A DNA stretch of 64,000 nucleotides from an uncultured Desulfatitalea sp. Its GTDB lineage: Bacteria > Desulfobacterota > Desulfobacteria > Desulfobacterales > Desulfosarcinaceae. The notes below the pieces were generated by a model, which worked only from the letters and a program-made list of their open reading frames with translations, was not told where the DNA came from and did no database searches. This document shows positions 22,950 to 26,988 of this stretch, piece after piece. The translations under genes were made by a program, and so were the position numbers. The stretch is taken from assembly GCA_937868765.1 (NCBI GenBank), contig CALMNL010000011.1, positions 62,001 to 126,000 on the forward strand. Direction: 5' to 3'. The stretch's first letter is position 1, and every line of letters starts with the position of its first letter.

Positions 22950-25430
22950 TTGAATTCGGCAATCTCTTCAGAGACGGCTGCGACCAGCGGCGTATCTTCT
23001 CATCTGATCGAGGTGGCGGTTTGCTTGCCGATCTTTTCGACCTTTACGTACGAGGTTCCTTCCGACCTGTGGCCGGAAGTAACACCGGGAAAGCGTGTCC
23101 TGGTTCCCTTCGGCCGGCGCCGGGTGACCGGCTATGTACTGGGCTCGGTGGATCAGGCCCCGGCAGCCGGGCTGAAAAGCATCTGCGCCATTCTGGACGA
23201 CCAGCCCCTCTTCCCGGAAGTGATGTCCCCCTTTTTCGGCTGGATCGCCGACTACTACATGCATCCCCTGGGAGAGGTGCTGCAGACCGCGCTGCCGTCG
23301 GGCATCAATTTGGCCGATCAAGCCTGCTACGAGCTGACTGAAAGCGGGCAGGCGGCCATGGCCGGCATCTGCCAAAACATGTCGGCCTGGGAGCAGCGCA
23401 TATTTTGCCGTCTGGTACAGGGGCCCTGCAGCCGTGGTGCATTGCGCCGCCTGGCCGGCCGCGCTTTTTCACCCGCTGTTTTGACCGCATGGGAAAAAAA
23501 AGGCTGGCTCGATCGCCGGGAGCGTCTGGCCGGCGGCCATACTCAACCCAAAACGATTCGATATGTCCGAACCCATCCAGGCTTCAACGACGTGCAACGG
23601 CTATCGCCGGCGCGCCGGGCTGTCTGGCAGATCTTGCAGGCCGAAGGCCCCGTTGCCATGGAAGCGCTGCGCGCCGTCCTTCCCACCGCGGCCGCCCTGG
23701 TACGTGCCATGGTGCGTGACGGCCAGGTACAGCTCGAACGACGGTCGGTCTATCGAGATCCCCTGGGGGACCCCATCGCGCCTGACCGGCCGCCGCCGTT
23801 GACGCCGGAGCAGCAGGTGGCCGTGGAAACCATGGGGGACCGTCTGGGAAAGGGGTATCAAACCTTTTTGCTGGCCGGCGTCACCGGCTCGGGCAAGACC
23901 GAAGTCTATCTGCAGATGGCGGCCCGGGCACTTGCCCGGGGGCTCTCGGTGCTGGTGCTGGTGCCCGAAATTTCCCTGATCTCCCAGACCGAACGGGCTT
24001 TTCGGGCCCGCTTCGGCGATCAGGTGGCCCTTTTACACAGCGGCCTGTCCGATGGCGAGCGACTGGACCAGTGGCAGCGCATCCGGCGTGGCGCGGCGGC
24101 CATCGCCGTAGGGGCCCGGTCGGCCATCTTCGCGCCTTTTGCCAAGGTCGGCCTGATCATCGTGGATGAAGAGCATGACGACTCCTACAAGCAGGAGGGG
24201 GCACTGCGCTACCACGCCCGCGACCTGGCTGTCATGCGTGCCCGCCAACAGGAAGCCGTGGCCATCCTCGGCTCGGCTACGCCCTCTTTGCAGTCGGCCT
24301 ACAATGCCCAGTGCGGTAAATTTCTGAAGATCAGCCTTTGCGACCGAGTGGACCAGCGGGCCTTGCCCGAGATCTTTGTCGAGGATCTGACCGCCGTGCG
24401 CGAAGAGCGCGGCGTCCGTCGCCACCTGACACCCGCATTGCTGAAAGCCCTGGGGGAAACCCTGGCGCATAACGAACAGGCGCTGATCTTCCTGAACCGC
24501 CGGGGATTTGCCGGCGCCGTGATATGCGGGGTTTGCGGGCAGATGGTCCGTTGCCGGCGTTGCGATATTTCCCTGACCTATCATCAGCAGGCCGATGTCT
24601 ATCAGTGCCACTACTGCGGCTTCAGCCAGCCGGCAATTGCGCGCTGCGGCCGCTGCGGGTCGGACCGCCTCCGGCGCATGGGCATGGGCACCGAGCGTTT
24701 GGAAGAAGATCTGCGCAAACTCTTCCCCGCTGCCCGGGTGGCCCGCATGGATCGAGACACCACCCGCCGCAAGGGAGCGTTGCGCAAGATCCTGAAGGAT
24801 CTGCACGACCGCAAGATCGACATTCTGGTGGGGACCCAGATGGTGGCCAAGGGCCACGACTATCCCCACATCACCCTGGTGGGCATCATCTGCGCCGACC
24901 TTTCCTTGAGCATGCCCGACTTCCGTTCGGGCGAGCGCACCTTCCAACTGCTCGCCCAGGTGGCCGGCCGTGCCGGAAGGGGAAAAGTGCCGGGACGTGT
25001 GATTCTGCAGACCTACAACCCGCTTCATTTCAGCATCACCGCAGCGCGCCAGCAGGATTTCGACGCCTTTTACAGGCAAGAGATCGAGTTCCGCAAGTTG
25101 CTGGGATATCCGCCGGTCACCCGCATGATCCAACTGCGGATCAGCGGCCGGGACAGTGTCCGGGTGGCCGAATTCGCCCAGCGTCTGGGCACCCGTTGCC
25201 GCCAGCTCCTGGCACACGGCACCGCAGACAACGGACTGGAGGTGCTGGGACCCATCGAAGCCCCCTTGCAGCGCATCGCCGATCAATTCCGTTGGCAGCT
25301 CCTGATCAAAGGGCCCCGGGTCGGACCGTTGCACCATTTCGTGCGTCGGCTGGTCTTCGGACCCGATGCCGTCGGCGCCAAGGGCGATGTGAGCATTGCC
25401 GTGGACGTGGACCCGGTGTTCTTGATGTGA
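22950..25430 (+). CDS. priA: primosomal replication protein N' (PriA helicase)
   Basis: An 826-residue protein with all PriA parts: an N-terminal DNA-binding domain (about 20-120), a superfamily 2 helicase with Walker A GVTGSGKTEVYL near residue 310 and DEEH box IIVDEEHDDSYKQE near 405, and a zinc-binding insert with Cys pairs (CGVCG, CRRCD, CHYCG, CGRCG; about 526-567). Helicase motifs V and VI (GTQMVAKGHDYP, QVAGRAGRG) and the C-terminal domain follow. It restarts stalled forks by loading the primosome. The start is a TTG at 22950 without a strong ribosome-binding site, which may keep levels low. Start position is the least certain part. Confidence 0.95.
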   Translation: MNSAISSETAATSGVSSHLIEVAVCLPIFSTFTYEVPSDLWPEVTPGKRVLVPFGRRRVTGYVLGSVDQAPAAGLKSICAILDDQPLFPEVMSPFFGWIADYYMHPLGEVLQTALPSGINLADQACYELTESGQAAMAGICQNMSAWEQRIFCRLVQGPCSRGALRRLAGRAFSPAVLTAWEKKGWLDRRERLAGGHTQPKTIRYVRTHPGFNDVQRLSPARRAVWQILQAEGPVAMEALRAVLPTAAALVRAMVRDGQVQLERRSVYRDPLGDPIAPDRPPPLTPEQQVAVETMGDRLGKGYQTFLLAGVTGSGKTEVYLQMAARALARGLSVLVLVPEISLISQTERAFRARFGDQVALLHSGLSDGERLDQWQRIRRGAAAIAVGARSAIFAPFAKVGLIIVDEEHDDSYKQEGALRYHARDLAVMRARQQEAVAILGSATPSLQSAYNAQCGKFLKISLCDRVDQRALPEIFVEDLTAVREERGVRRHLTPALLKALGETLAHNEQALIFLNRRGFAGAVICGVCGQMVRCRRCDISLTYHQQADVYQCHYCGFSQPAIARCGRCGSDRLRRMGMGTERLEEDLRKLFPAARVARMDRDTTRRKGALRKILKDLHDRKIDILVGTQMVAKGHDYPHITLVGIICADLSLSMPDFRSGERTFQLLAQVAGRAGRGKVPGRVILQTYNPLHFSITAARQQDFDAFYRQEIEFRKLLGYPPVTRMIQLRISGRDSVRVAEFAQRLGTRCRQLLAHGTADNGLEVLGPIEAPLQRIADQFRWQLLIKGPRVGPLHHFVRRLVFGPDAVGAKGDVSIAVDVDPVFLM

Positions 25431-25499
25431 GGGCGAAAGCGAAAGCCCGATTTATGGAAATATGAAATAATAGAGGCCTTCATGGAAGGAAGCGGTGGC

Positions 25500-25529
25500 T
25501 TGACATCCCGTATGGCTCACCATTATAGA
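25500..25529 (+). promoter_or_regulatory. candidate sigma-70 promoter for the DUF1573 gene
   Basis: A perfect TTGACA (25500-25505) and TATAGA (25524-25529) are 18 bases apart, ending about 46 bases before the ATG at 25576. The spacer holds a small palindrome, ATGG-CTCA-CCAT. Confidence 0.5.
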
Positions 25530-25575
25530 TGTATGGTCTTTAATGATTTTATTCCAACCATCGAGGAGAAAGTTC

Positions 25576-26364
25576 ATGCCAAGCAGGATCTGGCGTAACA
25601 TACTGGGGGCCATCGTCGTACTCACCTTGCTGACGGGTTTCGGTTTCACGGATAGGGCCCGGGCCGAAGGCGACAAGGCGCAGGTGAAGGCCGGCGCTCC
25701 CAAAGCCCATTGGACCGAGAGGCGCTTCGAATTCGCGCCGCTGCTGGAAGGCACGGATGTCACGCATGATTTTTTTGTTGAAAATAAAGGCAATGCCCCG
25801 TTGGAGATTCTCAAGGTGCAACCTGGCTGAGGGTGTTCGGTTGCCTCGAACCCGGGGCAGATTCCTGCCGGCGGCAGGGATAAAATCGGCGTGGTGGTTC
25901 ATACCGCGGGCAGGGGCGGACAAACGCTTACCAAGAGCTTCAGCGTCTACACCAACGATCCCAAAGAGCCCAACCTGGAGCTGGTGGTTACCGGCAAGGT
26001 CGAAGGATATGCAGAGGTCGATCCGCCCCGGGTTTCGCTCATGGGCAAGGTGGGCGAAACCCTGAAACAGGAGGTACGCGTCACGCCCAATGCCAAGTTC
26101 CCCTTCGCCATCAAGGAGGCCAAGGCTTCCACCGACCGGAATATCCGTCTGGATCTCAAGCCGCTCGGCAAGAATGGCGCCAAGGAGGGATATCTGCTGA
26201 CGGTCACGGTGATCAAACCGAACGCGGGGGGGTTCTCTGATTACATTCAGCTCCAGACCGATTTAAAAGAGAAACCCACCATCGGCATTCCCGTGCATGG
26301 ACGGCTGATGGCGCCGCCGGCGGAAAGCGATGGAAAAACGTCATCAGATCGATCCAGGGAATAA
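25576..26364 (+). CDS. DUF1573-like exported protein with in-frame UGA, probable selenoprotein (Sec85)
   Basis: One frame runs from ATG 25576 to TAA 26362, interrupted only by TGA at 25828-25830. Read through, it gives 262 residues: a signal peptide (about 1-30), a DUF1573-type beta-sandwich (about 42-140) and a second Ig-like domain (about 145-250). The family carries a conserved CGC motif after the strand here reading LEILKVQPG. In this protein TGA takes the place of the first Cys, giving U-G-C (Sec85-Gly-Cys87). Similarity continues on both sides without a frameshift, so Sec insertion is more likely than decay. GAGGAG supports the start. The HAD phosphatase gene starts right after its stop. 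A redox or assembly role outside the cytoplasm is inference. Confidence 0.78.
25831..25881 (+). promoter_or_regulatory. candidate bacterial SECIS region after the UGA
   Basis: Two hairpins directly follow the UGA. One (25832-25853) has GTTCG/CGAAC plus two GC pairs, a single bulged U and a 7-base loop starting GU, features reminiscent of the fdhF SECIS; its loop is only 9 bases from the UGA. The other (25861-25881) is a 9-bp stem with loop GGC, 39 bases from the UGA. Neither fits the usual spacing perfectly. Confidence 0.45.
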
Positions 26365-26988
26365 GTGATCACGAATAATATCAAAGTGGTGGCATTCGAC
26401 TGCGATGGGGTGCTCTTCGATTCCTCCCTCTCCAACCGGTCCTATTACAACCGGCTTTTGCAGCACCTCGGTCGACCGCCCATGACGGACCAGCAGTTCG
26501 CGTATGTCCACATGCACACCGTGCATGAAGCGCTCGCGTATCTGTTCGACAATCCGGAGGACCTGGCGGCCGTGCAAAGCTACCAGCGTCAGATGAGCTA
26601 TCTGCCCTTTATCCGTGAAATGGTGGTGGAGCCCTATCTGCGTGAGCTGCTGACACGGTTGCGGCCGGCGTATAAAACCGCCATCGCCACCAATCGCACC
26701 GATACAATGGCACGGGTGCTGGAAGAGCACGACCTGCAACCTTTTTTCGACAAAGTGGTGACCGCCTCCGATGTATGCCAACCCAAGCCCTATCCGGATC
26801 AGTTGCTGGTTTTGTTGGCATATTTCGGCATCGAACCGCATGAAATGATCTATGTGGGCGATTCCGAGCTGGATGCTGCGGCATCCCATCAGGCCGGCGT
26901 TCCCTTTATTGCTTTTGACAATCCTCGGCTGACAGCCAAGGCGCATATTCAAAACCTGAAACAGCTTCTATCGATTCTGGGCCACTGA
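26365..26988 (+). CDS. HAD-family phosphatase (phosphoglycolate phosphatase-like)
   Basis: A 207-residue HAD hydrolase. Motif I is FDCDGVLFDSS (nucleophile Asp near residue 12), a helical cap follows, motif II is IATNRTD, the Lys of motif III lies in QPKPYPDQ, and motif IV is YVGDSELD. The order and length match phosphoglycolate phosphatase-like and beta-phosphoglucomutase-like members; the substrate cannot be assigned. The GTG start at 26365 directly abuts the TAA of the DUF1573 gene, with GGGA inside the preceding codons, so translation is probably coupled. It is cytosolic. Confidence 0.88.
   Translation: MITNNIKVVAFDCDGVLFDSSLSNRSYYNRLLQHLGRPPMTDQQFAYVHMHTVHEALAYLFDNPEDLAAVQSYQRQMSYLPFIREMVVEPYLRELLTRLRPAYKTAIATNRTDTMARVLEEHDLQPFFDKVVTASDVCQPKPYPDQLLVLLAYFGIEPHEMIYVGDSELDAAASHQAGVPFIAFDNPRLTAKAHIQNLKQLLSILGH

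Follow-up and report, generated by a model that had tools for sequence, protein, structure and literature searches.

DUF1573 domain-containing proteins (pfam07610) with a UGC motif appear as a selenoprotein family in the family lists of two reviews (PMC9312934, PMC13188914), both of which credit the family to Zhang & Gladyshev 2007, a study on the deltaproteobacterial symbiont of Olavius algarvensis. In the GOS paper, the entry OS_HP2 is given as pfam07610 with the motif UxC (PMC2398784). The window analysed here, a stretch of 64,000 nucleotides from an uncultured Desulfatitalea sp., encodes a protein that scored 122.5 bits with the NCBIfam model NF041425 ('OS_HP2 family (seleno)protein'; curated cut-off 100) and 57.9 bits with Pfam DUF1573 (PF07610, residues 46-142; gathering cut-off 26.1). 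The motif belonging to NF041425, either U-G-C or C-G-C, is present as U85-G-C87. When compared to OS_HP2, the gene product falls into the same family above the curated cut-off, carries the same UGC motif in DUF1573 and stems from the same broad taxonomic group; no essential difference was found, making it another member. The gene is very probably an ordinary selenoprotein gene and not a new kind; its family is widespread, has been known since 2007 and occurs in most related sulfate-reducing bacteria. The earlier note, in which a probable new selenoprotein was proposed and no described DUF1573 selenoprotein was known, has to be corrected in this point, since the UGC-type DUF1573 family is already published and the NF041425 model is passed. 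Among 192 sampled genomes of the class to which the window belongs, 169 encode a family match above the NF041425 cut-off, and one internal TGA is present in most of these class-wide matches, among the matches listed. The window gene opens no new category; what it adds to the OS_HP2 family is modest, namely a SECIS examined for covariation and the conserved gene context priA - OS_HP2 - HAD phosphatase. The features of the locus are compiled in Table 1.

Table 1. Features of the OS_HP2 locus (positions refer to the window)
Feature	Position	Strand	Basis and remarks
priA (primosomal helicase), conserved upstream neighbour	22950..25430	+	neighbourhood of window and relatives
OS_HP2/DUF1573 selenoprotein gene	25576..26364	+	262 aa, Sec is residue 85; frame translation, family profiles, relatives
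Probable signal peptide (hydrophobic stretch at the N-terminus)	25576..25665	+	hydropathy only; residues 1-36 with low pLDDT
TGA codon read as selenocysteine	25828..25830	+	first position of the U/C-G-C motif; translation and relatives
SECIS-like stem-loop	25843..25858	+	alignment columns 16-20 pair with 27-31 (numbering starts at the T of the TGA); 6-nt loop; covariation
HAD-superfamily phosphatase, conserved downstream neighbour	26365..26988	+	GTG directly after the TAA of the selenoprotein gene

The earlier note had described a frame open on either side of a single TGA, family similarity continuing through this codon, its position at the first Cys of a conserved CGC motif and a signal peptide, and these four statements agree with the present data. 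The translation has the TGA at codon 85 as its sole internal stop and terminates with TAA, and the DUF1573 match extends across the TGA. The local sequence, LEILKVQPG-U-GCSVASNPG, places the TGA where the CGC motif of DUF1573 has its first Cys, resulting in Sec85-Gly-Cys87, and relatives have either TGA or a Cys codon at this position. The start codon ATG is preceded by GAGGAGAAA, a purine-rich, ribosome-binding-like stretch, and the N-terminus is strongly hydrophobic at about residues 8-22 according to hydropathy, the only basis used here. Translation starting at 25576 and the presence of a signal peptide fit with these features; judged from the hydrophobic N-terminus, the gene product is likely to be exported.

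The TGA was found at the same codon and in the same U-G-C context in all of the 30 closest relatives (matches with locus sequence). A scan of genome contigs with a single protein as query gave no matches, and an alignment used as query yielded 80 named loci, a second collection that partly overlaps with the first, as some genomes are represented in both. One of the two search patterns applied had Cys codons at the motif position, and any bias of this pattern is therefore towards the Cys forms and not towards TGA. The motif codon is TGA in 76 of the 80 loci, TGC in three and TGT in one; the third motif residue is Cys in all 80. Based on these sequence comparisons, the occurrence of TGA at this codon of the window gene is far beyond chance. 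Cys-containing DUF1573 proteins (PF07610), e.g. those encoded by loci L114 and L118, share the domain, the CGC at the same column and the neighbouring priA and HAD genes, but have TGC where the window gene has TGA.

All four genes to be expected for a bacterial selenoprotein, selA, selB, selC and selD, the presence of which the earlier note had left to be checked, are found in the genome. SelA was matched with an E-value of 3e-156, SelB via its winged helix and the tRNA-Sec with 72.4 bits and the anticodon TCA (UCA). The selD gene (L041, G000:C6:34183-35190) harbors one in-frame TGA of its own and thus probably encodes a selenoprotein as well. SelD proteins which are themselves selenoproteins are a known type.

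A bacterial SECIS is described as a stem-loop downstream of the UGA with the apical loop 16-37 nt away (PMC13188914). In the OS_HP2 gene, a 5-bp stem is located 13-28 nt past the TGA, with 17 nt between the UGA and the loop, which lies within this range. Among 59 TGA-containing sequences, the stem columns form standard pairs in 95.9% of the cells, and four of the five pairs show compensation with both sides changed (36 compensated cells). None of 500 shuffles, which ignore relatedness, reached the observed stem compensation or covariation score, and in shifted controls, which retain relatedness, at most 47.5% of the cells were paired. RNAalifold, when provided with the 59-sequence set and no structure, selected four of the five pairs of the covarying stem. 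With the first 26 sequences only, it returned another stem, in which columns 2-5 pair with 17-20; these columns are nearly invariant, and the stem was not retained. A further alternative (10-13/27-30) was dropped, being paired in only 43% and showing zero compensation. The stem was not predicted in three of four Cys homologues (L114, L118 and L087) and was predicted in the fourth (L122). The stability of the 41-nt single-sequence fold was not unusual (z -0.43), and an Rfam search over 25000-26800 returned nothing relevant. In the consensus bSECIS model, G is found in the first two loop positions, and some elements do not fit this model (PMC13188914). Only 14 of the 59 sequences, the window included, have G there, so that the loop would mostly depart from the consensus bacterial model, which is to be taken as a lead only. 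An OS_HP2 variant of the SECIS, with a short covarying stem (5 bp, loop from 17 nt past the UGA) and a loop mostly lacking the consensus G, so that SelB of these bacteria would recognise a loop other than that of the consensus bacterial model, is conceivable, if rather doubtful.

Selenocysteine incorporation is supported by the presence of the sel genes, the alternation of TGA and Cys in relatives and the covarying SECIS-like stem. The other explanations considered for the TGA itself account for these data poorly. A single substitution would be enough to produce one TGA in an otherwise open frame, either by decay to a pseudogene or by a sequencing error turning TGC or TGT into TGA, but TGA occupies this position in 30/30 and in 76/80 of the relatives, the frame staying open beyond it, and a downstream stem is maintained by compensatory changes. 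Random decay, already regarded as unlikely in the earlier note, and sequencing error are refuted by these comparative data and have a vanishingly small probability. Furthermore, the UGA might act as a real stop or be translated as some other amino acid, with a second, downstream ORF being translated separately from GTG 25891 to 26364; an ORF of 157 aa is indeed called mechanically from this GTG. However, both flanks of the TGA lie within one DUF1573 domain, the Cys homologues L114 and L118 have a sense codon in its place in the same gene context, and the whole Sec machinery is encoded in the genome, making this explanation very improbable. Decoding of the UGA at codon 85 as selenocysteine in a member of OS_HP2 (DUF1573) is regarded as very probable. 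The UGA would be decoded by SelB and tRNA-Sec, directed by the stem-loop just downstream, inside the coding sequence. The case supports the view that genes with in-frame TGA in this group are selenoproteins which standard gene callers would split.

The structure predicted for the protein by AlphaFold, with a mean pLDDT of 84.8, consists almost entirely of beta strands, and Sec85 is positioned between the strands 76-83 and 87-91. The first Ig-like domain is also matched by PF22544 (HYDIN/CFA65/VesB-like Ig-like domain; 31.2 bits, cut-off 25.5). Neither Sec nor a CGC motif is, to our knowledge, a feature of the PF22544 family. The top Foldseek matches were ciliary central-apparatus proteins, and a Porphyromonas gingivalis protein of unknown function (2qsv) was also listed; since the whole-chain TM-scores were low (about 0.35), the fold assignment relies on local matches and the Pfam hits. 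A search by sequence for a relative with a solved structure found none. The all-beta model and the Pfam matches fit with two Ig-like (ASH/HYDIN-type) domains, in which the product, probably exported, would be folded. Sec85-Gly-Cys87, which is flanked by two strands in the first domain, would most likely act outside the cytoplasm as a selenenylsulfide redox pair or as a metal site. For the redox pair, the chances are put at about even. A structural or metal-binding Sec-Gly-Cys without redox catalysis, which would leave the decoding unchanged, is given a somewhat less than even chance, with metal binding as the main functional rival: the Ig-like fold and the absence of a thioredoxin fold from the AlphaFold, Pfam and Foldseek results are in its favour, whereas, according to one of the reviews (PMC9312934), selenoproteins are mostly assumed to have redox functions. 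The best guess is an exported selenoprotein with two Ig domains and a Sec-Gly-Cys pair for redox reactions or metal binding, in which both export and role are inferred.

The gene neighbourhood is conserved. Of 29 relatives with flanks of up to 1.5 kb, 24 have priA beside the gene and 28 have the HAD gene there. Among the 76 TGA loci, 34 have both neighbours and 22 more have the HAD gene but not priA; contig ends cut some of these loci short. The locus is likely to be old and mainly vertically inherited, with Sec kept for long. Scanning the window for further TGA-interrupted genes did not reveal a convincing second selenoprotein. The gene order priA - OS_HP2 - HAD phosphatase (22950-26988 in the window) is kept among relatives of the same order. 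Several relatives encode a second DUF1573 paralogue without in-frame TGA, e.g. at G023:C1:3109545-3110180, G017:C148:20074-20718 and G042:C41:24435-25037.
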